Below are positions 2,023 through 57,001 of a stretch of 64,000 bases of DNA, one piece after another. Every line of letters begins with the position of its first letter. Positions within the stretch are counted from its first letter, which is position 1. The notes beneath the pieces were generated by a model that was not told the DNA's origin, made no database searches, and saw only the letters and a program-made list of their open reading frames with translations. This stretch comes from a virus. The stretch spans positions 1-64,000 of the IMG/VR virus record IMGVR_UViG_3300048927_000140. One strand, given 5' to 3'. The position numbers and the translations under genes were made by a program.

Positions 2023-2709
2023 ATGTGGTCCGGCCTGGGAATCGATAAGCGAGCCTTGCAGAGTCGGCCTACGCCGGACACCTACCCGTCGGTGTTCAGC
2101 CCGAACTGCAAGGTCCACTGGGACGCCGTGATAAACGGACTACCCCAAGAAGGTGAGGCTCAAGCTCTGTGGGCCACAGCCATACACGACTTCGTGGTCG
2201 CGTGTCGTGCAGCCAACACCAGTCCGTTCGCGGGCCTCCAGCAGACACGCAACGATCAGATCGTTAGTGCTCTGCGCAATTCACGTCGGGCCGTGCTCAA
2301 GGTGCTGGACAATTCGTATGCGTTCAAGATACTAACCTTGAAAGCGGTGAGGCGTAGCTGCACCGTCACCGACAAAGGCTTTGTTCTGCGCGTCGAAGGC
2401 GAGATCATGGCCGTCGATCCAACGGTCACCCATTGGTTGTTGAAGAAACCGTGGCCTGCCTTCCAGCTGAAAAACAAAGGCGTATATCGGAAGCAGTTGG
2501 ATCATCATACCCAGATGATCTTCTACAACGCTGGCGCGAACCTACCTCTGCGTTGGCACATCGGATACGAGATCGCACTGGACCTGAGGCCGGCGCTGCC
2601 CAATCCACTGGCATCCGACGCCGAGCAGGAGCAGTTCATACTCAAGGTGCTGTGGGCACACGTCATGGCTGACACGAGGACCCGCGAGTGGCATAGGCGC
2701 AAGCTCTAG
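2023..2709 (+). CDS. Unknown protein ending the first operon
   Basis: A 228-residue soluble protein with mixed alpha/beta character and no motif I recognise. It starts 1 base after the previous stop, and its TAG overlaps an AGTAAATA element, followed by a strong terminator at 2730. It is therefore the last gene of the operon. A Trp/His-rich C-terminus (LPLRWHIGYEIAL, REWHRRKL) is the only notable feature. Confidence 0.72.
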   Translation: MWSGLGIDKRALQSRPTPDTYPSVFSPNCKVHWDAVINGLPQEGEAQALWATAIHDFVVACRAANTSPFAGLQQTRNDQIVSALRNSRRAVLKVLDNSYAFKILTLKAVRRSCTVTDKGFVLRVEGEIMAVDPTVTHWLLKKPWPAFQLKNKGVYRKQLDHHTQMIFYNAGANLPLRWHIGYEIALDLRPALPNPLASDAEQEQFILKVLWAHVMADTRTREWHRRKL

Positions 2710-2715
2710 TAAATA
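2708..2715 (+). promoter_or_regulatory. AGTAAATA element (plus strand)
   Basis: An exact copy of the recurrent 8-mer, overlapping the TAG of the preceding gene. It is the only plus-strand intergenic copy found. A terminator begins 14 bases downstream, so a transcript starting here would be about 40 nt unless it read through. Possible promoter-like or processing site. Confidence 0.35.
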
Positions 2716-2729
2716 CGTGTTGAAGGAGA

Positions 2730-2763
2730 GGAGAGACAGTTCCAAGGCTGTCTCTCCTTTTGT
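2730..2763 (+). terminator. Rho-independent terminator
   Basis: A 10-bp perfect stem (GGAGAGACAG / CTGTCTCTCC), 8-base loop, followed by TTTTGT. It closes the tagged-protein operon and isolates the helicase gene. Confidence 0.85.
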
Positions 2764-2830
2764 CGTTTGACCCGACGCCACAAAACTCAATTTCACGGTT
2801 GACGTACCCCAAACAACCAAAGGAAATCCC

Positions 2831-5800
2831 ATGACCAACAAACTGCGAAGCACCACGAACCTGGTCGTTCCTCAACACCTGCGCCTCAAGAGCGCAGATC
2901 GTCGGAAGCGATTCATGTACGTGTACACCGCGGCGTACCCGGGCCTTGAACCAGTGTTCATGAACCGCCTGTGGCTCAGCCACTTCTTCCCGCAGATCGC
3001 CAGTGACCCGTCGTTCGGCAAGAATCGTAAGGGCGTGCGTCTGTACGTTCAGGCAGCTGAGAAATACAGCCGTGCCGGCCTGCTCAAGCTCAAGAAGGTG
3101 AACGACACTACGGATCCTCACTTCGTGGTCGCCGTCCCATTGGCCGAGTTCAACCGCTACGATCTCCAGAACTACGTGAACCAGCTCAAGTTCTGGTTCA
3201 CCAACGGCAAAGGCGATCACTCCGAAACCGACAATCGTGCGCAAGCTCTGACCGACGCCCTGAAGTCGAATGCCGAGAACCCAGAGGTTCAGCAACAGCA
3301 AGTGCTGGCCGCGCAGATCATTCCACATCTGGGCCTCGACGCGAACTCGCAGTTGGCCCTGAAGGAATGCTTCTTCGGCCTGCGTCTGCAATACGTCGGC
3401 GGCTTGGCTGTGGTCTTTGCCGACTTCAAAATCGCCAAGGACGAGGCCCAGCAACTCACGTCCACCGACTGGGCGATGATCCGTAACATGGACCTGTATC
3501 CGCTGATGCTCCAGTGGCAGATCAGCCTGTGGGGCTACCGCGACTCGGCACCGACCTCGTCGTTCCCCATGTCGAAAATCAGCAAAACCCTGCCACCGAT
3601 CCACGAGTCGCAGGCTCGCATCAACGAACATGGTCTGTCGGTCGCACCAGATGGTTCTGTGCTCTGGCTGCCGGAGCGGTTGGACAACACCAAGCGCTAC
3701 GAGGACCTGTACTCCCAGGTTGGCGATAAGGGCGACGACACCTTCGGCCTGATCGATATGGGCGAGGCCGGACACGCTGCAACCACTGGCGAGGAGCTCA
3801 AGATCAAGCTGCCGGCCAACATTCCGGTGTTGGTCGACTGGGTGAACAACCGTTTCGCCTACACCCAGGGTAACGGCGTGCTGAAGGTGCAGGACCTGAC
3901 GCGCTTCAAAACGTGCGACGACTCCCACGCGGCCAATCTGCTGAATCACTGGCTCATCGACAGCAAGGACGCCATGATGTTCATGGAGATGGGCAAGTCC
4001 GCTGGCGTGCCTGACGCGCTGTACTTTACCGAGGAAGAGGCCAAGGAGATCGAGGCCAACGACCCGATGACTGCCGGTCGCCTGATTGTCGGCGGCGGCG
4101 TGTCTGTAGAGCAGTATTGGGACACGGCCTATGACTATCATCGTCGCTTTGTCAACGAGAAGGATTTCAAGCTGGCGGATATCAGTATCGAGGGTGACCC
4201 AATCTGGCGTCCGTTCGCACGCTTCATCGAGACCGTGCAGGCCGCCGTGATCTCCAACATGGACGCAGTGAACCAGAAGTTCAGTGTCAGTGGTACGGCG
4301 TCCCGCTTGGGCACCATGACCCTGATCGCCAAGTACGGCAACAACCTGACACAGACGCTGACCAAATCGAACACGATTCGTGCCGCTGCTACCAATCAGG
4401 GTGTGGACCCGAACTGGCGTCCTGAGTCGGTACCCCTGATCATGGACAATCCGGAGCGTCCATTCTCGCTGCTGCCGCACCAAGCGAAGGTGCGCAACAT
4501 CATGAAGGACAGTCCGGACTTCGCCATTCTGCCAGTTCAGGCCGGCGGCGGTAAGACCCCTCTGGCCATCATCGACATTCTGATGGAGATCAAGGCCGGT
4601 CGCAGTGCGCCCTATCTGGTGCTGTGCCCCGCACCTCTGGTACCACAGTACGTGAAAGAGGTCACGTACTTCACCAGCGGTCAGGTGAACTGCATTCCAA
4701 TCGTGTCGGACGTGATCTTCCGTAACGGCTTCGACCGTCTGCAGGAGATGGTGGCAAGTGCACCGCGCAATACCATCGTGATCGTCAACTACGATGTGCT
4801 GCGCAACAAGGCCTACGACGTGTGCTATGGCACGACCAACGTCAAAATCTACCCGGTCATCGAGTTCCTGCGCCAGTTCAACTTCGGCTACGCGATGATG
4901 GACGAATCGCACAACCTGAAGAACGACTCGCAGCGTACCCGTGCAGCCCTCCAGCTGATTGCTGACATTCCTAAGAAGCGTCTGGCGTCCGGTACGATGG
5001 CCCACGACTCGCCGTCCGACCTCGCGCTTCAGGTTGCGATGCTGGACCCAACCCTGTTCGGATCTAGGGAGAAGTTCAACAAGCGCTTTGGCGCCGTTGT
5101 GAAGGGCAACCGCGTTATCGAGTGGAAGCCTGGAGCACAGCAGCAGATCATGAGCATGATCCGCAGTCGTATCGTGGTCGCGAAGGCCATGCGTAAGGAA
5201 TGGGCGGCTCTGCTGCCTATGGCTAAAGAGGACATGCACCTTGTGGAAATGAGCGAGGCGCAGCACTCGGTGTACCAAGCAATCCTCACCGAAGCCTTCG
5301 ACAAGATGCGAGAAGACGCCAAGACTAATCCGGCACTCAAGAAATTCTTCGAGTCGCAGCCTCTGATGCTGGAGAATCCGCAGAAGAACGGCGACGAAGG
5401 CCTCGACGAGGAAGCTGATCAGGAAGCAGAGGACGCGGCCGACGAGAACGCCGGGGAAGACCTCGAGGGTCTGCTGGGCTTCTATCTGGCCCGCTTGGAG
5501 CAGTTCCTGACTGCACCGGGCAAGGACGAGTTGGGTGCACGTCTGCTGCACGGCGATGACCTGCGTAGCCCTAAGGTCAACAAGATCCTGGAACTCATTA
5601 AGATGCACATTGCCCAAGGAATCGAGGGCAAGGTTCTGGTGTTCACCAACTACATCGAGAGCGCGGAGGAAATCTTCGAGGCTGCTGGTCCAGAACTTCA
5701 GGCCTCCGGTATCCTGTACACCGCTGGCGAGAAGGTTGAGGCTGGTGCCGCGTTCGAGACCGACGCGAAGAAGAAGTGGATGGTCGGTGTGGAGAACTCC

Positions 5801-7459
5801 ATGAACACGGGCCTGAACTTCCAGCACGTATCGCGCCTGATTCGGGTCGAGAACGTCTGGAACCCTGGCACTCTGGAGCAAGGTAACTCGCGTATCAATC
5901 GTCCTGAACTCAAGAAGGCTGATCGTCGTGAGATGATCTACTTCGACTGGATCGCGGTCAATCGTACTTACGACGTGACCAAAATCAGCCGCCTGATCTC
6001 CAAGATCATCGCGGTCTCCAAGTTTGAGAACGCGGAGAACCCGGCTTACGATGCGCTGCCGGACGTACCTGTGATCCCGATGAGCGCCGACGCTATTCTG
6101 GCGCGTAACACCCGGGAAGACCTGATCGAGTACGCGGACGCCTACCGTGAACACAATCAAGTCAAGTTCGACGACTACAAGGAGTACAGGGAGCGCCACG
6201 GTGAACTGAGCCTCACGCCGCTGATGATCGCGCCACGTCCAAAAGATGCGGCCATCATGTCCGACGTTCCGTACGTACCTGGTCTGGAACTGTTCAAGGG
6301 TTCCGAACGCGGTCTGGTGCGTGTTGACGAATTCCTGCGCACGAACGACACTGCGGTTGAAGTCGCTGACAAAGGCGGTGAAGGTGACGACGAGGGTGAT
6401 GAGGGCGCAGACGAAACCAAGATGACGGAGAAAGAGCGCAAGAACAAAGCGTTGGCCGATGCGCTGATTGGCAAGTTGGTCCACACCGAGTTCGGCGATG
6501 GCGTCGTCAAGGGTATCGCAGCGTCCAAGAAGCGTGTCAACGTCAGCCTGCCTAACGGCTACTGGGTGGCAGTCAAATACTCGGCGGCCTTCGTCATCAC
6601 TGACAAGGCAGTGAAGGGTGTGGAGATGCGCCAGCAGATCATCAAGGGCATTTCGGAAGATATGCCTGTCGTGGGTCCGCTGACGACCAAGAGCCCTCGC
6701 TTCAAACCAGACAAGGCAGGTGCGCGTCTGGCCGAGCAGAAGCGTCTGGCCGAGGAGCAGGAGCGCTTGAAGAAGCAGAAAGAGGAACAGATCGTCAACG
6801 GCCTGAACATCGAACTGCACTTCTCGATCTCCAACGGCTTCCTCAGCATCGTCTACTATCCAGAAGATGGTGACGATGCGTCGGCCGCACTTCAGGCCCT
6901 GGGCTTCCGTCCTGAAGAGCCGTATGTATTCGCTGAGGTACGTAACTCGCCGCAGCTGGTGCAGCAGTTCAAGAAGTGGTGGGACGCCGGCTTCCGTTTC
7001 GATCCGAAGTTCGAGAAAGCAACGGGCGCGGCAGAGGCCATCAAGGATCTGTCCAAGCTTCTGAAATCCGGCACGCTGCACAACGGTCAGATGGGATACA
7101 AGTTCGCGTCCCGTAACCAGATGGTGAACTTCTTCCGTATGGAGCTCAAGCCATCGGCCAATCCGAAGGAGTTCAAGCCCTACCCGATGATCGAAGACGG
7201 TGGTGCTTATCTGGTGATGCACACTCGTGGCCAGCCTGCAACCAAGGCCGCGATGCAGGTTCGTAGTCCAGGTATCCGCTGGCAGCACGCAGCAGATCGC
7301 ATGGCCTACTACGGCCTGACGGTCGACAAGGTGAGTGCGAAGATGCGCGAGATTTTGGCCTCGGGCATTCAGATCATGAACCTCAAGGATCTGCAAGTCG
7401 AGTTCAAGAAACTCAAGAAGCAGAAGTTCCGCAACGCCGAAGTGGAACAAGACAAGTAA
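2831..7459 (+). CDS. Giant SNF2/DEAH-type superfamily 2 helicase
   Basis: A 1542-residue protein. Residues 1-550 have no recognised domain. The helicase core holds Walker A QAGGGKT near 570, motif II DESH near 691, motif III SGT near 720, and a helicase-C lobe at about 930-1060 (VLVFTNYIESAEE, the NTGLN motif V, and GNSRINR as motif VI). An acidic linker near 860-880 splits the lobes. Near 1210-1250 a small beta domain (FGDGVVKGI...VNVSLPNGYW) looks like a CarD/Tudor-type module, followed by a short charged coiled coil near 1300. The size and DESH motif fit SNF2-like dsDNA translocases. It is flanked by terminators and sits beside head genes rather than the replication block, so an injected or DNA-packaging-related role is possible. 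No methylase or nuclease motif seen. Confidence 0.88.
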   Translation: MTNKLRSTTNLVVPQHLRLKSADRRKRFMYVYTAAYPGLEPVFMNRLWLSHFFPQIASDPSFGKNRKGVRLYVQAAEKYSRAGLLKLKKVNDTTDPHFVVAVPLAEFNRYDLQNYVNQLKFWFTNGKGDHSETDNRAQALTDALKSNAENPEVQQQQVLAAQIIPHLGLDANSQLALKECFFGLRLQYVGGLAVVFADFKIAKDEAQQLTSTDWAMIRNMDLYPLMLQWQISLWGYRDSAPTSSFPMSKISKTLPPIHESQARINEHGLSVAPDGSVLWLPERLDNTKRYEDLYSQVGDKGDDTFGLIDMGEAGHAATTGEELKIKLPANIPVLVDWVNNRFAYTQGNGVLKVQDLTRFKTCDDSHAANLLNHWLIDSKDAMMFMEMGKSAGVPDALYFTEEEAKEIEANDPMTAGRLIVGGGVSVEQYWDTAYDYHRRFVNEKDFKLADISIEGDPIWRPFARFIETVQAAVISNMDAVNQKFSVSGTASRLGTMTLIAKYGNNLTQTLTKSNTIRAAATNQGVDPNWRPESVPLIMDNPERPFSLLPHQAKVRNIMKDSPDFAILPVQAGGGKTPLAIIDILMEIKAGRSAPYLVLCPAPLVPQYVKEVTYFTSGQVNCIPIVSDVIFRNGFDRLQEMVASAPRNTIVIVNYDVLRNKAYDVCYGTTNVKIYPVIEFLRQFNFGYAMMDESHNLKNDSQRTRAALQLIADIPKKRLASGTMAHDSPSDLALQVAMLDPTLFGSREKFNKRFGAVVKGNRVIEWKPGAQQQIMSMIRSRIVVAKAMRKEWAALLPMAKEDMHLVEMSEAQHSVYQAILTEAFDKMREDAKTNPALKKFFESQPLMLENPQKNGDEGLDEEADQEAEDAADENAGEDLEGLLGFYLARLEQFLTAPGKDELGARLLHGDDLRSPKVNKILELIKMHIAQGIEGKVLVFTNYIESAEEIFEAAGPELQASGILYTAGEKVEAGAAFETDAKKKWMVGVENSMNTGLNFQHVSRLIRVENVWNPGTLEQGNSRINRPELKKADRREMIYFDWIAVNRTYDVTKISRLISKIIAVSKFENAENPAYDALPDVPVIPMSADAILARNTREDLIEYADAYREHNQVKFDDYKEYRERHGELSLTPLMIAPRPKDAAIMSDVPYVPGLELFKGSERGLVRVDEFLRTNDTAVEVADKGGEGDDEGDEGADETKMTEKERKNKALADALIGKLVHTEFGDGVVKGIAASKKRVNVSLPNGYWVAVKYSAAFVITDKAVKGVEMRQQIIKGISEDMPVVGPLTTKSPRFKPDKAGARLAEQKRLAEEQERLKKQKEEQIVNGLNIELHFSISNGFLSIVYYPEDGDDASAALQALGFRPEEPYVFAEVRNSPQLVQQFKKWWDAGFRFDPKFEKATGAAEAIKDLSKLLKSGTLHNGQMGYKFASRNQMVNFFRMELKPSANPKEFKPYPMIEDGGAYLVMHTRGQPATKAAMQVRSPGIRWQHAADRMAYYGLTVDKVSAKMREILASGIQIMNLKDLQVEFKKLKKQKFRNAEVEQDK

Positions 7460-7471
7460 TAGGTAGTGCCT

Positions 7472-7508
7472 AAAGCCTCGCCGTCTCTCGGGACCGCGAG
7501 GCTTTTTT
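7472..7508 (+). terminator. Rho-independent terminator after helicase
   Basis: A 10-bp stem (AAAGCCTCGC / GCGAGGCTTT) with a 14-base loop and a run of six T. It ends the single-gene helicase transcript. Confidence 0.88.
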
Positions 7509-7564
7509 ACGTCTGTGGTCAGCGCCTAGCAATTTGATACTTTCAACAAAGAAGGACAATCGCT

Positions 7565-8158: not shown

Positions 8159-8161
8159 TCT

Positions 8162-9279: not shown

Positions 9280-9281
9280 TC

Positions 9282-21777: not shown

Positions 21778-22449
21778 TTAAACGACCTCGATCTTGGACT
21801 TGATTATGGCCTCACAGAAGTAAGCCAAGCCGTGTACCGGCACGTGCAGGCGCGTGCTGACAAACGACATTGGATCCGCACCCGCTATGACAATGATGCG
21901 AGGCACGTTGGGGTAGGCTTCTAGAATGTCTCGCGCCTTTTCCAACTTCGTGTTCGTGGACTGCGGCGTCAGACCGCACAGCACGATCATTGTCGGACGC
22001 GCTCTGTTCGTGTCTAGGTACGGATTGTCGAATCCTCCGGTCAGCTGAATCCACCAGGGGTTCGCATCTGATCCCAGCTTGCGGCAGTGCTTGTCCATCA
22101 GATATGCGGCGAACAGCTTTGCCTTTGTGTCGTCAGGATTGCCTGACACTCCGTAGATCATGGGTAGCGATGGCTTCTTCATGAACTGCACCAAGGACTG
22201 ATCTTGTATCCCGGCCTCAATAAATTTCTCGTTCAGTTCGTCAGACTGGGTGGCGAAGGCTTCTGGCCTCCACTTGAATGCCGTCTGCCGCCAGACAGAG
22301 CCCGGCACCGTCTGGCCAACTGTACCGCTCTTGGCTACTTCGATTCGTACAGGCAGATCGTCTTCGTCCACAGGACGTCGTGCTGCTACCTGCTTGACTA
22401 CTGCTGCTTTCTTTCCAGGTTTCCCTTTTCCGGGCTTGATAAAGTCCAT
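21778..22449 (-). CDS. Possible helicase-loader-like protein (degenerate P-loop)
   Basis: A 223-residue protein. After a basic, disordered N-terminus, residues about 105-200 have an ATPase-like layout: MIYGVSGNPDDTKAKLF where a Walker A would sit but without GKT, TMIVLCGLTPQSTNTKL in the Walker B position, and PRIIVIAGADP as a sensor-like strand. It directly precedes the DnaB-like gene. I infer a loader or regulator that has lost nucleotide binding; confidence is limited. Ribosome site CAGGAGG; an AGTAAATA element is 15 bases upstream of the ATG. Confidence 0.5.
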   Translation of the reverse strand: MDFIKPGKGKPGKKAAVVKQVAARRPVDEDDLPVRIEVAKSGTVGQTVPGSVWRQTAFKWRPEAFATQSDELNEKFIEAGIQDQSLVQFMKKPSLPMIYGVSGNPDDTKAKLFAAYLMDKHCRKLGSDANPWWIQLTGGFDNPYLDTNRARPTMIVLCGLTPQSTNTKLEKARDILEAYPNVPRIIVIAGADPMSFVSTRLHVPVHGLAYFCEAIIKSKIEVV

Positions 22450-22463: not shown

Positions 22464-22781
22464 CTATTTACTGCCGCCTTCAAGATCGCAGACCTCGAAA
22501 TGCTCTTTCAACAGCGCGACGTAGAACTCCGGCACCTGATCGTCGATGAACAATCGCGTACCTTTGACGAGACAGCGCCGCAGCATTACGAACGAGCGCA
22601 CGGTATAGGTACGCGCTTGCACCAGATAGACGTCGAGACCTCGATCTAGCTGGGCGCACACTCGTTCGTGGACCGGATCTTTCAAGTCCAGTAGCACGTT
22701 GGCCTTGGTATAGCTCATCGGCGTGAGTATCTCCGAGACCGCGTGCTTCTCTTTGTGATCGAACACAAGCGCGTATTCCAT
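22464..22781 (-). CDS. Small unknown protein in replication block
   Basis: A 105-residue protein starting at 22781, where TAATG overlaps the upstream stop and AGGAAA lies at good spacing; a longer frame to 22862 would run through the upstream gene. The sequence is alpha/beta with a regular pattern (VYLVQARTYTVRSFVMLRRCL), possibly Rossmann-like. Its stop overlaps the AGTAAATA element. No family recognised. Confidence 0.65.
   Translation of the reverse strand: MEYALVFDHKEKHAVSEILTPMSYTKANVLLDLKDPVHERVCAQLDRGLDVYLVQARTYTVRSFVMLRRCLVKGTRLFIDDQVPEFYVALLKEHFEVCDLEGGSK
22465..22472 (-). promoter_or_regulatory. AGTAAATA element before the loader-like gene
   Basis: Exact 8-mer on the minus strand, 15 bases before the ATG at 22449 and overlapping the preceding stop codon (AGT AAA TAG). 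Confidence 0.4.
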
Positions 22782-25403: not shown

Positions 25404-25775
25404 CTACTGCTCCTCGAATACTGTGGCCAGCTCTGGATTGACCAAAGGGCTTATGGCCAACGAGCCTTTGTTGGCGTAGTGAAAGACCACAAGATTTTCG
25501 TCCTTGACCAAGGTCTCGTACGCGGTTGCTGGACCTTTGTTACGGAGGTAGGTCATGAGATAGGACCCTCCGTTCTCAACCTCGAAACGAGTCTTGAAAA
25601 GGAAGCCCACACGTTGACTACCGACCAGCATGAAGTTGATATCGAACATGCAGCTAACTGGGAGCGCTGGCCCCACCTGCAAGTCAGTGCCGGCCGCAAG
25701 ATTTTGGGTCGGCAGCAAGAAAGCCCCGTCCACCTCGATGAAGGCGCCGGGGCGTACGTCGATCAGGATCTTCAT
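25404..25775 (-). CDS. Small beta-rich protein next to sliding clamp
   Basis: A 123-residue protein with predominantly beta pattern (GAFIEVDGAFLLPTQ, NLVVFHYANKGSLAISPLV). Its ATG overlaps the sliding-clamp stop by 4 bases, so it is co-translated with the clamp. No family recognised. Confidence 0.65.
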   Translation of the reverse strand: MKILIDVRPGAFIEVDGAFLLPTQNLAAGTDLQVGPALPVSCMFDINFMLVGSQRVGFLFKTRFEVENGGSYLMTYLRNKGPATAYETLVKDENLVVFHYANKGSLAISPLVNPELATVFEEQ

Positions 25776-26836
25776 TCTTGGTTCAGCGAAAGAATGATGG
25801 TCGAGGTCTTGAGATTGATGGCCAGGAACTCTCCCTTGACCAGCGTCATCTCCACAACATTGCCGGCCTTGCGCACCGCCTCATCAAGATACTCGAAGTC
25901 GATTGAGAACTCGCAGTTCTTGGCCTTGGTCTTCAAGGTGACCTTGGACGAACCCTGAACCGTGGTGACCTCGATCTTGAGTTTGCCGTCTTCGACCTTG
26001 GCCTTAATTTCGCTACGCTCTTTGGTAGCTACGGAACGCGAGTTGTCGAGGAACGCCAGAAGATCTTCCTTGTTGAGGCTGAGCGTCTGGCCCTTTGCTT
26101 CTTTGGCTGCGCGTGCAGTATCGATGACGTCCTTGATCGTCAGTTCGTTCTCTTCCTCTTGTGGGAGGCTGAGCACGACATTGACCAGCTTGTTGCCGAC
26201 CTTGACGTTGGCCTTGCCCAGTTCGAGCACGAACGCATTGCCACCGAACGCGTCCAGCACGGCACTGAGAGTGTCTAGCGGCAGCTTGATCTCCATGTCG
26301 CCTTGCATCTCGCTACTGTTCAGGAACGCCATGTGGTTCACGTCGAAGCAGGCGACGAACGCGCCCTTCTTGCCGAGCTTGATACCGATGGGCATGAAGG
26401 TGGAGAGTAGTGCCGTAGGCTTGAGGGCTACTGTCGTGACAGCGGCCTTGATCCACTGTGCCTGTTCGGTCGTGAACTCGATCTTCTGACCTTTCTCCTC
26501 CTCACCCTGCTCCATCTCCAGAGTGTCGACGGTCGCGAGGTCGCAGCGATAGCTGCCGGCCTTGATCTTGCACATGGCTTTGGAGAATTCGATCTCCAGT
26601 TCTTTGCGACCCTTAGTGGCGTCGCGCAAAGCATTCATTGCGATGGCGAACGCACCGCTCTTGCCACTAACGGTGGCCGGAATGTTGACCGAGCAACGTG
26701 CGGTCTCCGACGACGCTTGAATAAACACCTTCTTGCCGTTGCTACTGATTGTGACGTTGCCACTGTCTGGAGCGGCAAGACGTCCGATTACGCGGAGGGC
26801 TTCTTGTATTGCGGCGGACTCTGTTGTGAAGTTCAT
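25772..26836 (-). CDS. Sliding clamp (DNA polymerase processivity factor)
   Basis: A 354-residue protein of beta-clamp length, with repeated beta-rich segments of clamp character: NVTISSNGKKVFIQASS, CSVNIPATVSGKSGAFAI, GAFVACFDVNHMAFL and FEYLDEAVRKAG...EFLAINLKTSTIILSL at the end, where clamps have their conserved last strands. It encircles DNA and tethers the polymerase. The start at 26836 has AAGGAACGTC; a longer frame to 26905 lies inside the upstream gene. The nearby clamp loader and SMC genes agree with the call. Confidence 0.8.
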   Translation of the reverse strand: MNFTTESAAIQEALRVIGRLAAPDSGNVTISSNGKKVFIQASSETARCSVNIPATVSGKSGAFAIAMNALRDATKGRKELEIEFSKAMCKIKAGSYRCDLATVDTLEMEQGEEEKGQKIEFTTEQAQWIKAAVTTVALKPTALLSTFMPIGIKLGKKGAFVACFDVNHMAFLNSSEMQGDMEIKLPLDTLSAVLDAFGGNAFVLELGKANVKVGNKLVNVVLSLPQEEENELTIKDVIDTARAAKEAKGQTLSLNKEDLLAFLDNSRSVATKERSEIKAKVEDGKLKIEVTTVQGSSKVTLKTKAKNCEFSIDFEYLDEAVRKAGNVVEMTLVKGEFLAINLKTSTIILSLNQE

Positions 26837-26861: not shown

Positions 26862-27047
26862 TTATTTACTATCGGGGTCGAAGCGAACGATTCGCCAATA
26901 GGCAAACCAGAATAGGAGTAGAACGACCCATATCAGACCTATCGTGGCCTTGAGATCGAGCGTAGTCCATGCGTCTGGCGTAACTGCCGCGGCCCCGTAT
27001 GTGGTAATCGTCAACAGCACAGCGAGGACTAATTTGCATGCAAGCAT
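26862..27047 (-). CDS. Small two-helix membrane protein
   Basis: A 61-residue protein with two predicted membrane helices (about 2-22 and 35-53: LVLAVLLTITTYGAAAV and IGLIWVVLLLFWFAYW) and a short charged tail. Ribosome site AGGAGACGATA. It heads the clamp operon. Such proteins in phages may act on the host membrane; nothing more specific can be read. Confidence 0.65.
   Translation of the reverse strand: MLACKLVLAVLLTITTYGAAAVTPDAWTTLDLKATIGLIWVVLLLFWFAYWRIVRFDPDSK
26863..26870 (-). promoter_or_regulatory. AGTAAATA element before sliding clamp
   Basis: Exact 8-mer on the minus strand, 26 bases before the clamp ATG and overlapping the upstream stop (AGT AAA TAA). Confidence 0.4.
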
Positions 27048-27991: not shown

Positions 27992-28348
27992 TTAAGGTGT
28001 GGTGTCGATCTCGACTTTGACAAAGCGAAGCTCGGTACCACTACAGGTAACGAAGCACACGCAAGTGCCGGGGCTTGGATCGGGGACTGCTACAACACTG
28101 GGATCTGTAGGTTCGGTTGTATCAGGCAGCCGACTGGTGATGAAGGCTCGAATGCGAGCCGCCACATCCAGACCCTGAGACTGTACGGTATCGAACGGCA
28201 GGCTCAGAGCATGTGTAGGCAGCGTGTACAGTTCGACGTAACGCGCCGCCCACGGTGCGACGTAGTTCTGACCGTCGTAGATCAAGTCCGTATCAGCCAC
28301 AGAAAGTACAGGAGTGGACTGATCCGGCATCACAATGGTGATAAGCAT
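27992..28348 (-). CDS. Small protein upstream of the structural-like gene
   Basis: A 118-residue protein (ITIVMPDQSTPVLSVADTD..., then a Pro-rich segment and a final strand FVTCSGTELRFVKVEID). Probably co-expressed with 27120. Ribosome site CGGAGGACCC. No family recognised. Confidence 0.62.
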   Translation of the reverse strand: MLITIVMPDQSTPVLSVADTDLIYDGQNYVAPWAARYVELYTLPTHALSLPFDTVQSQGLDVAARIRAFITSRLPDTTEPTDPSVVAVPDPSPGTCVCFVTCSGTELRFVKVEIDTTP

Positions 28349-28377
28349 GGGTCCTCCGAAAAGGTTAAATTGCGGGC

Positions 28378-31322: not shown

Positions 31323-31651
31323 TGTTGGATCGCATAGAACAGGTAATGAACGGAGTCCAGTTTGGTGGGCATGCACCAGTTGTAGCCCTCAGGCAGTGTC
31401 TCTCCGACTTTGCGGACGATGAACACGACCTTCTGGTAACCTTCCGGCGTGCCCGCTCGAATGACACTCAGCTGAGGGAACGGCGTTTGCTGCTGAACGC
31501 GGGTGTGCATGTAGTGAATCTCGATAACGCCCGGGCCTTGTGCGAGTTCCCATCCTGCATGCAAGAGAATGAAGCCCGTGGGCAGCAGTGCTACTACGTT
31601 GGTCAAAGAGTCGTGGCGAATGGTGAAGGCCTGCGTGTATGTGATGCTCAT
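31319..31651 (-). CDS. Small unknown protein upstream of gp46-like gene
   Basis: A 110-residue beta-rich protein (LTNVVALLPTGFILLHAGWEL, GYQKVVFIVRKVGETLPEGYNW). It is co-translated with the SMC ATPase through ATGA. AGTAAATA lies 27 bases upstream of its ATG and a terminator precedes that, so it probably heads a transcript. No family recognised. Confidence 0.66.
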   Translation of the reverse strand: MSITYTQAFTIRHDSLTNVVALLPTGFILLHAGWELAQGPGVIEIHYMHTRVQQQTPFPQLSVIRAGTPEGYQKVVFIVRKVGETLPEGYNWCMPTKLDSVHYLFYAIQQ

Positions 31652-31678: not shown

Positions 31679-31686
31679 TATTTACT
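31679..31686 (-). promoter_or_regulatory. AGTAAATA element heading the gp46-like operon
   Basis: Exact 8-mer on the minus strand, located between an upstream terminator (31696-31733) and the first gene (ATG at 31651), which is where a promoter is expected. This is the best-placed copy. Confidence 0.5.
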
Positions 31687-31695: not shown

Positions 31696-31733
31696 AAAAA
31701 CAGCCGCCGACTTTTTCAAGAGGGCGGCTGTTT
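31696..31733 (-). terminator. Minus-strand terminator
   Basis: Minus strand: AAACAGCCGCC and GGCGGCTG pair (10 bp with flanks) followed by TTTTTCG. It ends the clamp-loader operon. Confidence 0.85.
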
Positions 31734-33491: not shown

Positions 33492-33839
33492 CTACTCCTT
33501 GTTGATGCGCCGTAGCGCGTGTTGTTTGAGATACAAGCGTATTCTGTAAGACGGTACGCTCTCGGCTTCAGGCAAGTAGGTCCACTCAACGTCGCGGCCG
33601 ACCTTCATTAGACCTTCTATACACTTCTGGCCCTTAAGAAAGGCGCTGATGCTCACATCCCCGCTAGGGAAATGACGCATCTCGATATCGTAGCCTTCGT
33701 GGCTGAATACCTCGAGGGCAAAATCTCGATGTTGAGTCACGCGTGTTGTTGGACCTTGCGACTGATCGGCCGCCAGTTCGTGACACTGACACAGCCAACG
33801 GCACAGCCACTTCTTTAACTTTTGGACTTTCGTTTCCAT
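33492..33839 (-). CDS. Small basic protein upstream of clamp loader
   Basis: A 115-residue protein; basic Trp/Cys-rich N-terminus (KLKKWLCRWLCQCHE) then an alpha/beta domain ending in KQHALRRINKE. It overlaps the upstream gene by 25 bases and ends 2 bases before the clamp-loader ATG. No family recognised. Confidence 0.62.
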   Translation of the reverse strand: METKVQKLKKWLCRWLCQCHELAADQSQGPTTRVTQHRDFALEVFSHEGYDIEMRHFPSGDVSISAFLKGQKCIEGLMKVGRDVEWTYLPEAESVPSYRIRLYLKQHALRRINKE

Positions 33840-34027
33840 CGCTTCAACTCCTCTCCCATCACGGCATGCAGGGAGTCCGAGACACTCTCGTAGAGACGGT
33901 CTCGGACCTTCTTGACCTTATCGCCTTCTTCCAGCTCAGCAACTTCGGTAATGCTAACGGTCAGGGGCTCGAACTGCGCCGCCTGAACTACTTTGGTAAC
34001 GGTCACGGAAAGGGTTTTGCGTTTCAT
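33815..34027 (-). CDS. Small basic protein
   Basis: A 70-residue protein: two strands (TLSVTVTKVVQAAQFEPLTVS), a charged helix and a Lys/Arg-rich end (ELKRWKRKSKS). AGTAAATA is 11 bases before its ATG. No family recognised. Confidence 0.62.
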   Translation of the reverse strand: MKRKTLSVTVTKVVQAAQFEPLTVSITEVAELEEGDKVKKVRDRLYESVSDSLHAVMGEELKRWKRKSKS

Positions 34028-34038: not shown

Positions 34039-34046
34039 TATTTACT
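34039..34046 (-). promoter_or_regulatory. AGTAAATA element in replication block
   Basis: Exact 8-mer on the minus strand between the nuclease stop (34048) and the ATG at 34027, 11 bases from the start codon. Confidence 0.4.
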
Positions 34047-34946: not shown

Positions 34947-37193
34947 ATGATCCTTCAACTCACCGATTATGCGGTTGGTGTACTGGCTACCAATCCGAGC
35001 CCGACCCTGGACGTCTTTAAGATCGGTTCGGCTTCTGGCTATGTTCCGCTGCCGACCGACACTGACATTCACGGCAGCATCCAATTCACGGGCCAAGTAG
35101 CACCGCCTGTGACGCTCAACGCCAACGTGGTCAAGTACGTGATCTCGATGGACAGCACCGTCGGCGACTTCTCCTACGGCGAGGTCGGCTTCATGTATCA
35201 GGGTCAACTGTTTGCCCTGGCCGTGGCCGATACGCTGTCGTTCAAGCGCAAGACCGGCGCTGATCCAGGCAACATCGTGCGCTTCGACGCCTATCTGACT
35301 GTGGTTGGTGCGAACTACGCCATGGTCGTGGACGAAGCCGATTCGTCAAACCAGTTCATGATGGCCGGCTTGTCGACCATCGATCAACTGCCGCCAGTAA
35401 ACAACACGCTGCCTAACAGCTATATAATTAGCGGCGCGTCGTCTGACCAATCGACCTTCATGGCCTACACCGACCGTACCGGCTTGTGGTCGTTTGACGC
35501 CTATCAGTTCGGCAACACGATTCCAGCCACTGTGGTGTCGGCTGACATTCTGAGCGTGACCATTGCGCTGGCCGACTACTCGGCGGATATGAATCCGGCG
35601 TTCTTCGGTCAGGTGGCGCTCCAGTTCGGCACCGGCCTGAACTTCTCCATCTGCCGCTACGTCAAGACCGCGATTCAGAGTGGCCAGACCGTGACCCTGG
35701 GCTTCCAGACTCCTATGGCCATCGTGCCTAGCGCGGGGGACAAGATTCGCGTGTACCGTCGTGTGGACGGCGCCAGCGGCCTGCAACTGCCTATCGCTAC
35801 TGCGTCGCTGCTGGGTGGTATCAAGATCGGCACGGGTCTGGTCATCAATCCGACGACCGGCGTGTGCTCGGTCGATCCAGCAGCACTGGGCGCCGTCACT
35901 TCGGTGAATGGTAAGACCGGTGCTGTCACGCTGACCGCACCAGACATTCCGGGCATCGCCACCGTCGGCAAAACCGGCAGCTACAACGACCTGACCGACA
36001 AGCCAGCACCGTATTCGCTGCCAATCGCAACCACGACAGTGCTCGGCGGTGTGAAAGCCCCGGCCAATGGCAATCTGACGATCAATGGCAGCGGCGTCAT
36101 CGACTTGGGCTTTACCCCGATTAAGACTGTCAACGGCGTGGGCCCAGATGCGAGTGGTAACATCAACGTGGTCTCGAACGAAATCGGGCTGGTTGATCCG
36201 CAAGCTGTGGTGTCGAACGCTGACCTCAACAACTATACCACGACTGGTCTATTTACTATCGCAGCTGGCTTGTCCACCAACTTGGTCAACGCACCGACCA
36301 ACACAGGTGAAGTCGCAACCCTGGAAGTCGTGCCGACCGTACTGAACGGCACGGGCTACTCGGTGCAGCGCTACATCACGGCGACCGGCATGTGGTGGCG
36401 TGCAGGCGTCGGCAACTCGTGGGGTGCGTGGAACGCGGTCTCGACACAGGCCATTGCCACTACTTCGAGTCTCGGCGTGGTGCAGATCGGCAGCGGCCTG
36501 AGCATCACGGCGCAGGGTGTCCTGTCGTGGAACTCCAGCGCTCTTCCTGTGGCCTCGGCTTCGACCCTGGGTGTGATTCGTGTTGGCTCAGGTCTTAGCA
36601 TCGACGGCTCTGGCATTCTGAGCGCGACCGCAACTCCGTATACCTTGCCAATTGCAAGTGCAGGTACTCTGGGTGGCATTCGTGTTGGTGCTGGCCTGTC
36701 TATCGATGGCTCCGGCATCTTGAAAGCCTCGGTGCAGACCGTAAACGGTGCAGGCCCAGACGCCAACGGTAATATCGTTGTGACCAGTGACTCGAACAAG
36801 CTGGATCGCGTGAACGGTACTGCTACGGGTGTATATCTGACGTTTGTTGATCTGGGCACCAAGGCAAGCGGCTCGTTGGTCACGGTGGCTGCTTCGGCCG
36901 CAAACGTGCAGCGTGCGCAGTTCACTGGCGGCAACGTGAGCTGGACCTTCACGTGGCCTGCTTCCGGTACTTACGCTGAGGTACAGCTGGAGATCCAGAA
37001 CGGCGGTCTTGCGACCCACACGTTCCCGGCCGCACTCAAGTGGGTGAACCCAGACGGCACGTTTACCACTGCGTTCGCTACCTACATGAACAATCGTCGT
37101 GCAGGTCAGTCGAACTTCCAAACAAGCGGCATCGACTTTGCCATCATGTGGACTCGTGACGGTGGTACGAATATCTATGCCGTGATTCTGTGA
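34947..37193 (+). CDS. Long tail fibre protein
   Basis: A 748-residue fibre. The N-terminus (MILQLTDYAVGVLATN...FKIGSASGY, EVGFMYQGQLFALA) resembles that of the glycine-rich adhesin at 50511 and is probably the baseplate attachment domain. From about residue 285 there are repeats of the type LPIAT..LGGIKIGTGL, five copies with variations, as in T4-like fibres. Then SVNGKTGAVTLTA and NGVGPDASGNI segments. The C-terminal part likely forms the trimeric shaft tip. AAAGGAAACGAG precedes the ATG. It is followed by two propeller-like repeat genes that may encode tips. Confidence 0.83.
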   Translation: MILQLTDYAVGVLATNPSPTLDVFKIGSASGYVPLPTDTDIHGSIQFTGQVAPPVTLNANVVKYVISMDSTVGDFSYGEVGFMYQGQLFALAVADTLSFKRKTGADPGNIVRFDAYLTVVGANYAMVVDEADSSNQFMMAGLSTIDQLPPVNNTLPNSYIISGASSDQSTFMAYTDRTGLWSFDAYQFGNTIPATVVSADILSVTIALADYSADMNPAFFGQVALQFGTGLNFSICRYVKTAIQSGQTVTLGFQTPMAIVPSAGDKIRVYRRVDGASGLQLPIATASLLGGIKIGTGLVINPTTGVCSVDPAALGAVTSVNGKTGAVTLTAPDIPGIATVGKTGSYNDLTDKPAPYSLPIATTTVLGGVKAPANGNLTINGSGVIDLGFTPIKTVNGVGPDASGNINVVSNEIGLVDPQAVVSNADLNNYTTTGLFTIAAGLSTNLVNAPTNTGEVATLEVVPTVLNGTGYSVQRYITATGMWWRAGVGNSWGAWNAVSTQAIATTSSLGVVQIGSGLSITAQGVLSWNSSALPVASASTLGVIRVGSGLSIDGSGILSATATPYTLPIASAGTLGGIRVGAGLSIDGSGILKASVQTVNGAGPDANGNIVVTSDSNKLDRVNGTATGVYLTFVDLGTKASGSLVTVAASAANVQRAQFTGGNVSWTFTWPASGTYAEVQLEIQNGGLATHTFPAALKWVNPDGTFTTAFATYMNNRRAGQSNFQTSGIDFAIMWTRDGGTNIYAVIL
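36250..36257 (-). promoter_or_regulatory. AGTAAATA copy inside the fibre gene
   Basis: The same 8-mer lies on the minus strand inside a plus-strand coding region with no minus gene downstream. It is listed as a probable chance match and control for the motif. Confidence 0.15.
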
Positions 37194-39059: not shown

Positions 39060-39938
39060 TCATTTCCGCTTACCGAACAGACCCTTGGTCTTCGGCCAAC
39101 ACAGTTCTTGATGCGCGTACCATGCCTTCGGCAGATCAAGACCCTCGTGTCGGCTCTTACGTGGCTTGAGGTCTGCTGGATCGGGTAGCGCCAAATCACT
39201 GCGTAGCGTCACCAGCTTATTGTTCATCACCAGCTTGGCCTGATTGGCGTGGATGAATTTCTTGGTCTCCTTGTCGGCGGCCTCGAACCAGGCTTTGACG
39301 CTCTTATGTTTCAGACATACGGCCTTGGCCTTGGCCGGACTCAGCACCTGCGGAATGTCATCGATCGGATCGCCAAGCAGTGTTTGAAGCATCACCATCT
39401 TGGAGACTGGGACGCCGCGCATTTTCTCGGCGCGCTCTGCCGTGATGTAGCGAGGCTCTGGCTTATACGAACTGTCATAGAGCCTTACACCTTTCTTCAA
39501 GAAGGCAAAGCCGTCTTTGTCCTTGCCTCCACCAACAACATCATAGCCAAGCGCCGAATACTGCACGGCCACTGATGCCCAGAAGTCGTCAGCCTCGTAC
39601 TTGGAGTGCTGGACCAAGGTAAGGCCTACTTTGGCACACAGCTTGCGGATATTTGGAAGGGCTGCATAGAGGTCCTTATAGCTCTCATCCTCTTTCTCGG
39701 CCTTGGACTTCTCGTGCCGCGAAGCTTTGTACTGCGGGAATATGTCGTAACGGAACACCTTGTGTCCGTCGAAGGCAATCAGAATATGAGTTGCCTTCAC
39801 CATGACGGCATCCTTAAGCACCAGGCTCAGGAAGTTCATGGGTAGTACGTCCTCGAGTGGACGGCTGGATTTACCGCTCGTGTGCAATACACGGTGCAGA
39901 TACCAGTTACCGTCCACGAAGAATACGCGATTGGTCAT
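39060..39938 (-). CDS. 5'-3' exonuclease / RNase H (FEN family)
   Basis: A 292-residue flap nuclease-type enzyme that removes RNA primers, like T4 Rnh. Motifs: FFVDGNWYLHRVLH at the N-terminus, LIAFDG and FPQYKASR in the metal-binding region, KYEADDFWASVA, GGGKDKDGFAFL, and GDPIDDIPQVLSPAKAKAV as the H3TH-like region. Start at 39938 (MTNRVFFVDG) rather than 39959 because the preceding small gene ends at 39947. The replication enzyme is displaced from the main replication block by the fibre genes. Confidence 0.88.
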   Translation of the reverse strand: MTNRVFFVDGNWYLHRVLHTSGKSSRPLEDVLPMNFLSLVLKDAVMVKATHILIAFDGHKVFRYDIFPQYKASRHEKSKAEKEDESYKDLYAALPNIRKLCAKVGLTLVQHSKYEADDFWASVAVQYSALGYDVVGGGKDKDGFAFLKKGVRLYDSSYKPEPRYITAERAEKMRGVPVSKMVMLQTLLGDPIDDIPQVLSPAKAKAVCLKHKSVKAWFEAADKETKKFIHANQAKLVMNNKLVTLRSDLALPDPADLKPRKSRHEGLDLPKAWYAHQELCWPKTKGLFGKRK

Positions 39939-39946: not shown

Positions 39947-40234
39947 CTAGTGCATACACGCCGAGTATATCGGCGCATCTTGGTGAATCATAAGGCTGTA
40001 GTTACCGTCATCCGGAGGCACCTCAACTTCCATCTCGGCGTGATGGTCCCAAAACGACACGGTGACGAATGGATGCGAGAGACGCAAACCGTCTTGTACA
40101 CGCTGACGGACCAACTCGGGGTCACCGCCGAAGTCATGCTTGGTGGCCAGAGAGTGACCTTGCTTGAGAGCCAGCTCGGAATTGAACAGCGTCCGTATGG
40201 CTCGGCCATCGATGAATACTCCAATACAGCTCAT
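39947..40234 (-). CDS. Small unknown protein upstream of exonuclease
   Basis: A 95-residue protein starting MSCIGVFIDG with a strong AAGGAGGACTAAT ribosome site. The pattern VSFWDHHAEMEVEVPPDDGNYS suggests a beta domain with charged loops. An AGTAAATA element lies 20 bases upstream. No family recognised. Confidence 0.65.
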   Translation of the reverse strand: MSCIGVFIDGRAIRTLFNSELALKQGHSLATKHDFGGDPELVRQRVQDGLRLSHPFVTVSFWDHHAEMEVEVPPDDGNYSLMIHQDAPIYSACMH

Positions 40235-40254: not shown

Positions 40255-40262
40255 TATTTACT
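40255..40262 (-). promoter_or_regulatory. AGTAAATA element before exonuclease operon
   Basis: Exact 8-mer on the minus strand in a divergent intergenic region, 20 bases before the first ATG, where a promoter is needed. Confidence 0.5.
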
Positions 40263-40273: not shown

Positions 40274-40310
40274 AATTTTATGTTTGTCTTAAATTAACGA
40301 AGAGGCTCCA

Positions 40311-43975: not shown

Positions 43976-44347
43976 ATGGCAGTCCGACGCGCCATTGCTT
44001 CGGGATCCCCCGATCTTGAAATACCAACAACCGATGCGCTTGCTTACGGCTTGCAGCAGAACACGTCAAAAGAGGTTGACGCCACTAATGGGTTGACCTC
44101 CAAAACTATCACGGCTCGGCGTACCTATTTGACGGGTACCGCTGGGCTAACCTTTACTATCAACCTGCCAGCTGCCAGTGCAGCTATAGATGGCATGATC
44201 TTGACCATCATGAGTACGACTACGCGAAGCTTGGTGACTTGGGCGTCTTCTGGCGCCACGGCTCCGGGTATCGCAGGGCCGAATGCAAACACTCCAGTGA
44301 CAGTGCAGTACGATCACGCGACGACTCGATGGTATAAGGTCAACTGA
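43976..44347 (+). CDS. Small fibre-associated protein, tandem copy B
   Basis: A 123-residue paralogue of the preceding gene, differing mainly in the N-terminal 20 residues and the last loop. AGGAGGCTCCT precedes the ATG. Together they suggest duplication for variable receptor contacts or heteromeric assembly. Confidence 0.68.
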   Translation: MAVRRAIASGSPDLEIPTTDALAYGLQQNTSKEVDATNGLTSKTITARRTYLTGTAGLTFTINLPAASAAIDGMILTIMSTTTRSLVTWASSGATAPGIAGPNANTPVTVQYDHATTRWYKVN

Positions 44348-44375
44348 ATTTAAGTCTTTATCAAAAGGAGATGTA

Positions 44376-49855: not shown

Positions 49856-49856
49856 C

Positions 49857-50446: not shown

Positions 50447-50453
50447 GACGACA

Positions 50454-50487
50454 AAAGGGAGTGTCCGAACGTTCGGACACTCCCTTT
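50454..50487. terminator. 34-bp perfect palindrome, bidirectional terminator
   Basis: AAAGGGAGTGTCCGAAC is followed directly by its reverse complement. Convergent genes lie on both sides, and each strand ends in CTTT with more T on the plus side. Confidence 0.85.
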
Positions 50488-50510
50488 CTTTTGGTCTGTG
50501 CGTCTTAGGA

Positions 50511-52226: not shown

Positions 52227-52238
52227 TGTGGGCCTCAG

Positions 52239-53339: not shown

Positions 53340-53348
53340 GTTTATTCC

Positions 53349-54548: not shown

Positions 54549-54796
54549 TATTCATTCCTCTTATCAAAGTTCCAGCGTGTAGGGCTAAAGCTCGGTCCGA
54601 GCTTAGCCGCGTTCGAGTAGCCATGCAGGAGTTCACGGACCTCCGCAATTGATACCAAATGCTCTGGACACTCAACGATATCTATCCCGCCGCGCGGGAC
54701 CCGTGCGATGCGTGAGATAAGGCGCGTCACTGCCTCCTCTCGGGAACTCGCTTCCTCTACGAAGACGACGTTCCCCTGTTGGTGAGTGTAGATCAT
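54548..54796 (-). CDS. Small protein between baseplate genes
   Basis: An 82-residue protein (VVFVEEASSREEAVTRLISRIARV...SIAEVRELLHGYSNAAK), alpha/beta, of unknown function. Tightly coupled with the next gene. Perhaps a baseplate assembly chaperone. Confidence 0.6.
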   Translation of the reverse strand: MIYTHQQGNVVFVEEASSREEAVTRLISRIARVPRGGIDIVECPEHLVSIAEVRELLHGYSNAAKLGPSFSPTRWNFDKRNE

Positions 54797-54798
54797 GG

Positions 54799-56568
54799 TC
54801 AGGCGAGTCGAGTTGGTGTGTCTTGAATACGCTGCTGGCGTTCCGCAAACTGCACGTTGACCTTCAGCGAGGCTATTTTGTTGTAGCGAATCGGAACGTC
54901 GGCAGTGCCGGGTGGCTTCACGCCCGGCACGATAGAGCCATCATCGATGAACTCCAGCACCACACCAGGGCCGGGAGTTACAGTGCCGAGCAGTCCCACC
55001 TCGTTGGCTTTACGACCGTAAATCTTGTACTGGGCAGCGACCTGCAAAGGCAACCACGTGATCTTGATGGTGTTGTTCGGGCCCATCGCTTTCGTGACCT
55101 GTGGGAACACCCAGTTGGCTGGAGGACCTTCTTCACCATCAGCGTTGACCACGCTGACTCCGTAGGCATACATCAGTTGGCCCAGAGTGCCGGCACCGGT
55201 GATGATCTCGTACTCGGTGTTTGGCGAAGGCGGCACGGTGACGATCATTGGATCCACAGGATTCTGAACCGTCACATACGACACGGCGCCCTTACCAGCG
55301 AGGCGGCACGCATTCTCCAGATCGTAGTTGTAGAAGTTGGTCATCAGCAGGCCGGCACGTGGCGCAAACAGCTTCTGGATCTGGGTCTCGCAGTCGGCCT
55401 GCACTTTCGTCAGCACCGCAGTGTTGAAGCAGTAGACCGTAACCTCGATATCGCGGAACACGGGGATCGCGTCCTGCCACACAAAGCGCGTGCTGTACAT
55501 CGTGACCGATTGCAGATACTTGATGTAGTCCTGCTGCTGAGCCTGAGTCCACGTAGTGGTCGTCAGGGCACTGATACGGATGACATTCATCCACTCCAGA
55601 GCCATCGGATTGATATCGCGCTGGGCCTGGGTCACCGAGTCGACGATGCCCGGATAGGTGCCAATCGTCGCCAGATACTGCGACTTGGTCACGGCGCTGC
55701 TGTACGTACCGAACGCGCCGCTGCTCAGATTCTTGTAGGTCTGGATCGGCTGTTCGTCGCCGCCGCCAGTCGGGTTCGCGGTGGCTTTGCCAGTGATCTC
55801 CGGATGGCCATCAACCGTCAGAGGTTTGTTGACCAGCGTGACGTTCGCTCCATCTGCGCCACTGGTGATCGCGTACTGGATGATGACCGTGTCGGTGACC
55901 AGCGGCGTATAGCCATACAGTTCGCTACCAAACACGATGAGGCAGCGACCGTCCGAAGTCGTCAGGTCCGCGTAGGCCGGCAGATTCTTGTAGTTCCACA
56001 ATGTGCCGAAACTCTTTGGAATCATCGTGTTGTTGATGAACACTCGAACGTCTTGGTCACTGACCGTGAATTCGTCGTCGTTGGTCAGGAACGTTTGGCG
56101 CGGAGATCCCAGGCCGCTCATACCAAAGGCCAAGATGCGACCTTGATACAGCGTGGTATTCAGCGGCGTATTCGGATCAAGGAAGATCTGGTCGCGGTTG
56201 AAGTAATACTGGCCGCCGATCATGAACTGGGTCATTGGGTCCAGAGTCTGAGCCACGCCCAAGGACGAGGTCATTGTCACTGGCAGGCCGCATGGCAGCT
56301 TGCGGGTCATGCGCAGGCCTTGCATCTGAGTGATCGAACGAATCGCCGAGTCCGACTGCGCAGTCTCGGAGAATGCGTCGTCGCCAGTCCGTATGTTGCG
56401 GCCTTCCATGAAGGTGCCGACAGCGGCAACGAGTTCAACCAAGGTCTGCGAGGTCTGTGTCGTGAGCGTGCCCTTCCAAACATCAACGTTGTTGAGATAG
56501 GACTGGAATGACTCCACGAAGTCGTTGAAGTCTACGGCCTGAGCCGGTATGGTGAGGTCGGTTGTCAT
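54799..56568 (-). CDS. Baseplate wedge protein, gp6/gpJ-like, with Fn3-like domain
   Basis: A 589-residue protein with the gpJ/gp6 layout: an N-terminal helical region (FNDFVESFQSYLNNVDVWKG), a long beta region (DQIFLDPNTPLNT...GADGANVTLVNKPL) and VTVYCFNTAVLTKVQADCETQIQKLF, a hallmark segment near residue 380. Residues about 466-550 add a fibronectin-III-like domain (YAYGVSVVNADGEEG...ITWLPLQVAAQYKIYGRK), closely similar in plan to the insertion in the tail sheath. It forms the wedge dimer around the hub. Overlaps the gp25-like gene by 4 bases. Confidence 0.82.
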   Translation of the reverse strand: MTTDLTIPAQAVDFNDFVESFQSYLNNVDVWKGTLTTQTSQTLVELVAAVGTFMEGRNIRTGDDAFSETAQSDSAIRSITQMQGLRMTRKLPCGLPVTMTSSLGVAQTLDPMTQFMIGGQYYFNRDQIFLDPNTPLNTTLYQGRILAFGMSGLGSPRQTFLTNDDEFTVSDQDVRVFINNTMIPKSFGTLWNYKNLPAYADLTTSDGRCLIVFGSELYGYTPLVTDTVIIQYAITSGADGANVTLVNKPLTVDGHPEITGKATANPTGGGDEQPIQTYKNLSSGAFGTYSSAVTKSQYLATIGTYPGIVDSVTQAQRDINPMALEWMNVIRISALTTTTWTQAQQQDYIKYLQSVTMYSTRFVWQDAIPVFRDIEVTVYCFNTAVLTKVQADCETQIQKLFAPRAGLLMTNFYNYDLENACRLAGKGAVSYVTVQNPVDPMIVTVPPSPNTEYEIITGAGTLGQLMYAYGVSVVNADGEEGPPANWVFPQVTKAMGPNNTIKITWLPLQVAAQYKIYGRKANEVGLLGTVTPGPGVVLEFIDDGSIVPGVKPPGTADVPIRYNKIASLKVNVQFAERQQRIQDTPTRLA

Positions 56569-56993
56569 GTGTTTGGTCCTGCGGTTTCTTGGAATCGAAT
56601 ATCCAGAGGTTGCTTGGTCAGCGAGTCAGTCCCATAGATGCGCACTTCGTACCCCGGTATGTTCAAGTTGGGTACGATGGAGGTCTTGGAATAGTCAAGC
56701 TGGATGCGTGGCTCCCAGCGCTGAATTGCCTGTATCATCGAGATGCGCATTTTTGCCGCGGTGATGGCATCTATGGGCTCTTGCAAAAAGTAAAGCCATT
56801 CCGAACCATACTCAGGCTGGAACGTTTTACCTCTGGCCCCGATCGGGCAGTTGAATAGATTGTACAGGCTGGACTGTGTTATAGCGAGTGAGTCGGGAAG
56901 GCGGTCTGGCAGAGGACCTTGCGTTACTCGCGTGTACACGTCAACCCAGGTTGCCCCCGTTAGGGACAACTCGTATGAAGTTGGTAGTGGCAT
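56565..56993 (-). CDS. Baseplate wedge protein, gp25-like
   Basis: A 142-residue protein of gp25/gpW type. The key signature is present: LFNCPIGARGKTFQPEYGSEWLYFLQEP (G-x-R-x-F-x-P-x-Y-G-S) and IQAIQRWEPRIQ. It attaches sheath to baseplate wedges and starts sheath assembly. The AGTAAATA element abuts its ATG. Confidence 0.9.
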   Translation of the reverse strand: MPLPTSYELSLTGATWVDVYTRVTQGPLPDRLPDSLAITQSSLYNLFNCPIGARGKTFQPEYGSEWLYFLQEPIDAITAAKMRISMIQAIQRWEPRIQLDYSKTSIVPNLNIPGYEVRIYGTDSLTKQPLDIRFQETAGPNT

Positions 56994-57001
56994 TATTTAC
57001 T
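56994..57001 (-). promoter_or_regulatory. AGTAAATA element abutting the gp25-like start
   Basis: Exact 8-mer directly before ATG on the minus strand, spanning the PAAR gene stop. There is no room for a leader, so a promoter role here is doubtful; it may be coincidental with the TAA-stop context. Confidence 0.25.

Follow-up and report, generated by a model that had tools for sequence, protein, structure and literature searches.

The window, that is the whole stretch of DNA analysed here, comprises 64,000 bases from a linear virus record that is 64,446 bases long. It encodes contractile-tail phage genes together with helicases, a sliding clamp, a clamp loader, and SbcC-like and exonuclease proteins. 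The capsid protein shares 74% identity with those of the Burkholderia phages BcepSauron and BcepSaruman and 60% with that of Achromobacter phage Motura, and on this sequence likeness the window is most likely a piece of a BcepSauron-related jumbo myovirus whose genome would measure roughly 190-260 kb. Gene calls came from a simple script based on codon usage, and their start codons are therefore approximate. A PAAR-repeat ORF at 56997-57260 on the minus strand (Pfam E=1.2e-12), encoding a spike-tip protein directly ahead of a gp25-like gene, is absent from these calls. In the window as a whole, the palindromic word CGATATCG is over-represented (18 copies vs 3.0 expected).

An octamer repeated at gene boundaries

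The octamer AGTAAATA is the top over-represented 8-mer of the window, where it occurs in eight exact copies (Table 1). An exact search recovered each of them at the position and on the strand given by the original prediction, in which the word was proposed as a phage promoter element recurring at gene boundaries. Shuffled versions of the window contained 0.33 copies on average and two at most, and an order-2 Markov model predicts 0.22. About one copy had originally been expected; as the computed expectation is only 0.2-0.33, the enrichment is stronger than first claimed. The other local details given at that time also held, namely the spacing of 0-27 bases to the next start for six minus-strand copies, the terminator beside the copy at 31679 (a terminator-like hairpin followed by a T-run), the divergent arrangement at 40255 and the copy lying within coding sequence at 36250, which is antisense to a tail-fibre-like gene.

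Table 1. Copies of the octamer and neighbouring elements in the window
Feature	Position	Strand	Context
AGTAAATA	2708..2715	+	115 nt before giant helicase gene (2831-7459)
AATTTCA, candidate second-class (late) element	2789..2795	+	between the 2708 copy and the helicase gene
AGTAAATA	22465..22472	-	15 nt before DNA-polymerase-like gene (21778-22449)
AGTAAATA	26863..26870	-	26 nt before sliding clamp gene (25772-26836)
AATTTAA, candidate second-class element	28365..28371	-	before ORF 27992-28348
AGTAAATA	31679..31686	-	27 nt before ORF 31319-31651 and SbcC/gp46-like gene
Terminator-like hairpin with T-run	31696..31731	-	adjoins the 31679 copy on its upstream side
AGTAAATA	34039..34046	-	11 nt before ORF 33815-34027 and clamp-loader operon
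AGTAAATA	36250..36257	-	antisense within tail-fibre-like gene
AGTAAATA	40255..40262	-	20 nt before ORF 39947-40234 and 5'-3' exonuclease gene (39060-39938)
AATTTTA, candidate late element	40274..40280	+	opposite direction, toward holin and endolysin genes
AATTTAA, candidate late element	44347..44353	+	before 904-aa structural/tail-fibre gene
AGTAAATA	56994..57001	-	0 nt; overlaps PAAR ORF stop codon, touches ATG of gp25-like gene

Most of these sites recur before the orthologous genes of related phages. The site at 2708 is found before the helicase orthologue in BcepSauron (hereafter Sauron) and in genomes G010, G001, G003 and G004, and as TGTAAATA in G012; its pairing with AATTTCA is kept in several relatives. 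The DNA-polymerase-like gene is preceded by AGTAAATA in Sauron, G010, G001 and G003 and by CGTAAATA in G004. In the same way, the clamp promoter carries AGTAAATA at -31 to -40 in Sauron, G010, G001 and G003, CGTAAATA at -36 in G004, and TGTAAATA at -38 in G012 and at -26 in Xanthomonas phage PhiXhv-12, and conservation of this kind extends to the promoters of the helicase, polymerase and 5'-3' exonuclease genes. The site at the head of the clamp-loader operon is also present in Sauron (189673) and, at varying distance, in G010, G003, G004 and G012, while the exonuclease site is kept in Sauron (184977), G001 and G003 and appears with T as first base in G012.

The copy at 56994 is probably due to chance, because it overlaps the PAAR stop and the gp25 start and because NGTAAATA was found before gp25 in none of the relatives tested; in five relatives this gene is preceded instead by AATTT[T/A/C]A. 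The antisense copy at 36250 is probably fortuitous as well, which leaves six of the eight copies likely to be functional as judged from their sequence context.

Enrichment and placement across relatives

The original prediction had proposed counting the octamer genome-wide and in relatives. The counts are well above expectation: AGTAAATA is the top over-represented 8-mer in Sauron (21 observed vs 0.65 expected), G001 (27/0.5), G003 (33/2.9) and G004 (30/0.4) and the third in the AT-rich G010 (47 vs 7.7), giving 166 copies vs 12.4 expected in six genomes pooled. In this pool, single-base variants occur at about chance level, except for C at position 1 (36/13.7). The AT-richer genomes G010 and G003 hold 13-14 copies inside genes.

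In gaps between co-directional genes, 156 copies are oriented with the gene and none against it. Most copies lie 10-100 nt ahead of a start codon, with a median distance of 46 nt to the next one over 217 pooled sites. Alignment of these 217 sites revealed neither conserved bases near -35 nor a TTGACA-like -35 at 16-18 bp, nor a conserved -30 element or MotA box, and little information was present outside the octamer and the initiation region, although the base preceding the octamer is C or T in 85%. A pyrimidine-purine (YR) step is found 7 nt after the motif in 58% of the sites, vs about 15-30% at most other offsets, with a second peak of 42% at 9 nt. This signature is clear in most genomes and weak in Sauron and G001. 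Such a peak is typical of transcription starts and would put the octamer at about -14 to -7. Copies were also found ahead of tRNA-like sequences in G001 and G004. Taken together, the clade-wide enrichment, the strand bias and the conserved orthologous sites support the proposed phage promoter element, which is further backed by the spaced initiation signature and by the copies before tRNA-like sequences.

Some individual arrangements were also observed. At 153620 of G001 (L087), one copy directly precedes a tRNA-like sequence and two further copies lie just after it, and in G006 (the record of L029) three copies at 2767-2804 are spaced by exactly 15 bp. A hairpin right after the motif was considered as a general feature and rejected: it is present at 9 of 20 Sauron sites, but not above the level of shuffled sequences or motif-free gaps.

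Genes downstream of the octamer

Gene classes were assigned with the Sauron annotation as reference, and genes with an upstream gap were counted. The octamer precedes 27 of 85 DNA-metabolism genes vs 1 of 125 structural genes (p=2.7e-11). Orthologues are not independent, so the figure by gene family is the safer one, with 9 of 23 DNA-metabolism families vs 1 of 28 structural families (p=0.003). Its targets include the giant helicase, the clamp, DNA polymerase, DnaB, RecA and the single-strand binding protein. Since the downstream genes are replication genes, the regulon is of middle type, with its timing inferred from gene function.

A second motif, AATTT[T/A/C]A, is located in Sauron ahead of the genes for the major head protein, the tail tube, gp25, the tail fibre and the holin, and most genomes keep it before the genes for the holin, the tail fibre and RuvC. 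Its strand bias is 149:26. It probably serves late genes, for which it is a candidate promoter only, as the contrast between 30 of 125 structural and 13 of 85 DNA genes is not significant (p=0.16). The two motifs meet in a divergent pair common to the window (40255/40274) and to Sauron (184947-184984), where AGTAAATA points toward the exonuclease gene and AATTTTA toward the lysis genes.

Switching of the first base

Distant relatives still carry the core GTAAATA, but the base ahead of it, the first of the octamer, differs genome-wide, being A in the window, C in Motura, and T in outer relatives and in G012. Motura has no AGTAAATA and its top 8-mer is CGTAAATA (37 copies vs 1.4 expected), of which about half lie within predicted genes. 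G012 contains 45 copies of TGTAAATA and one of AGTAAATA while its neighbours are A-types, which would be an A-to-T switch inside an A-type clade. PhiXhv-12, Erwinia phage Y3, Vibrio phage GR7B, G035, G038 and G039 are T-rich, and G023 (a 231,255-bp record) is A-rich. A shared trans-acting reader would be expected to cause just such a change, in which one base shifts jointly at dozens of unlinked sites.

In the phage PaBG (L138-L150), GTAAATA is almost absent although the region-2 sigma described below is present. The PaBG upstream regions are enriched instead in TAATTTA (12 vs 0.46) and CTGTAAA (10 vs 1.0). In Pseudomonas phage vB_PpuM-Peetri (W04), GGTAAATA is the commonest form of NGTAAATA, with 13 copies of which 11 are on one strand, and it is possibly a fourth first-base state.

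Candidate readers of the motif

A sigma factor of family phrog_17569 (Sauron gp240) was found in every near-complete relative searched. The profile of this family matches region 2 of RpoD (E=4.6e-6), and Pfam recognized Sigma70_r2 in 9 of 11 members and a region 4 family in none of the 11. The AlphaFold model of the protein (pLDDT 83) matched sigma70 chains in Foldseek with a probability of 1.00 and E about 1e-3. The PaBG report (PMC7412058) names gp118, which is the phrog_17569 sigma, and a weaker second sigma candidate, gp112. The gp112 family is conserved too, including in Motura and as Sauron gp159, and each near-complete clade member searched for the two families contains both. Sequence and fold searches did not establish the gp112 family as sigma factors; the fold search returned no significant match, with weak sigma and TFIIB matches among many. 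Neither gene is located in the window fragment.

The motif may be read by the phrog_17569 sigma (Sauron gp240) or by the second putative sigma (Sauron gp159/PaBG gp112). No residue of the region-2 sigma was found to track the first base of the motif. The G012 sigma is about 60% identical to that of Sauron, and in its region 2.3-2.4 it has no residue that is missing from the A-types despite the switch of its motif; it is for this reason that the region-2 sigma may not be the reader. In the gp112 family, residue 204 is T or S in A- and C-types and N in nearly all T-types including G012. This column scores highest, yet in a pseudo-switch control two of nine lineages equal its score, and it is therefore only a lead. 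That the regulon switched its code in concert between A, C and T, with a reader of the gp159/gp112 family perhaps tracking it through residue 204, is a tentative proposal that we regard as rather doubtful. If true, it would provide a natural system for following how a transcription factor changes in step with dozens of its sites.

A BcepSauron protein, gp101 (L059:8671-9399), is annotated as an RNA polymerase, and no Pfam or PHROG family backs this annotation.

Proposed promoter class and alternative readings

The explanation that we favour, with a probability of about 0.78, is that AGTAAATA is a -10-type middle promoter read by a phage sigma, with transcription starting some 7 nt further on, and that AATTT[T/A/C]A is probably late. 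The octamer would be the sole recognition element of a phage-specific promoter class driving delayed-early or middle operons of replication, recombination, nucleotide, tRNA and accessory genes. Host RNA polymerase would be reprogrammed by a phage sigma-like factor lacking a domain that reads the -35, would bind the 8-mer, which would lie at about -14 to -7, and would begin transcription about 7 nt, or sometimes 9 nt, downstream of it. Computation showed how enriched and how strict the octamer is, its orientation and positions, the class of its genes, the initiation signature, the conservation of the core and the genome-wide switching of the first base, and we infer that transcription starts at the sites, its timing, and that one of the two candidate factors may read them. 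Against this explanation stand the copies inside genes in G010, G003 and Motura, the near-absence of GTAAATA from PaBG in spite of its sigma, the motif switch of G012 with no matching change in sigma region 2.3-2.4, and the weak YR signature in Sauron and G001.

The closest parallel drawn here is with phiEco32, whose middle and late promoters carry tAATGTAtA, are read by the sigma gp36 and start 6-8 bp downstream; gp36 was reported to be without region 4 homology (PMC8948821). Both systems have a single strict element, no -35 and middle genes among the targets, as well as a phage sigma with region 2 and without region 4, here as a candidate reader. A start at the YR peak 7 nt after the motif would be similarly spaced. 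Nevertheless, the word and the phage group are different. Unlike in phiEco32, the AGTAAATA class goes with replication genes, and structural genes are often preceded by a second motif. In PaBG, which shares the gp118 and gp112 families with the clade members, the GTAAATA element is lacking, and no promoter motif is described in the available part of its report (PMC7412058).

The octamer might also form the -10 of a promoter read by the host sigma with the help of a MotA-like phage DNA-binding activator, in place of a phage sigma. TAAAT does resemble a -10, and separate sigma70-like words (TTGACG, CTATACTG) suggest that these genomes employ the host holoenzyme at other sites. The middle promoters of T4 (MotA box and sigma70 -10, with AsiA/MotA) serve the same class of replication and recombination genes. 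However, the 217 pooled sites have no conserved activator element at -30/-35, the motif is not a canonical TATAAT, and the near-absolute strictness over 8 bases and the concerted switch of the first base suit a dedicated factor, which makes this reading improbable.

The original prediction had likened the octamer to TATAAATA, the T4 late promoter that gp55 recognises and that works with gp55, gp33 and gp45 in T4. On a full reading of this kind, a gp55-like sigma with the sliding clamp as co-activator would drive structural genes. The likeness stands as far as form is concerned: both are single -10-like octamers ending in TAAATA without a -35, the spacing to the likely start is similar, and clamp and clamp loader genes are present in the window. 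It fails for the rest. A gp55-like sigma factor, for which a search had been suggested, was found neither in the window record, which is a fragment, nor in seven related genomes, whereas the T4 control was found, and no alignment links gp55 to the phrog_17569 profile (E=0.078 over 33 columns). TATAAATA has no copy in the window or in BcepSauron, the first two bases are AG, CG or TG instead of the TA of T4, and the targets are replication genes rather than structural ones. This reading is thus largely refuted and we consider it very unlikely.

Two further readings are less probable still. A translation or mRNA-processing signal, to which the position of most copies shortly ahead of start codons would conform, is hard to reconcile with the copies before tRNA-like sequences, with the YR initiation signature and the terminator directly upstream at 31679, or with distances that vary widely and amount to 83-165 nt at the helicase gene, where another element frequently intervenes. 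A short, strict and repeated word could be bound by any protein, for instance as an operator or as a replication or packaging recognition site, yet its sense-only orientation and its placement before replication operons are promoter-like, and such a role is just as improbable.

The titles and abstracts searched contained no report of AGTAAATA or TGTAAATA as a phage promoter, and the literature searched yielded no promoter motif for this group of jumbo phages lacking an RNA polymerase (Sarumanvirus, Moturavirus, RSL1-like phages and relatives). As a promoter, the motif would allow the middle regulon and a candidate late regulon to be read from the sequence, linked to two conserved sigma-like proteins, and a natural example of one-base promoter-code switching over many sites.

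Other upstream words

Further words were found upstream of genes. In BcepSauron (L052, L059-L063), TATTGTTGACGG-like words occur 19-22 times, and CTATACTG is found in Sauron and G010; both are probably early sigma70-type promoters. In G001 (L080-L089), the leader TCCCTATGAAAAGG is repeated before start codons in 8-9 copies, and G003 contains the related TCCCTATGTAAAGG, both being possibly a translational leader.
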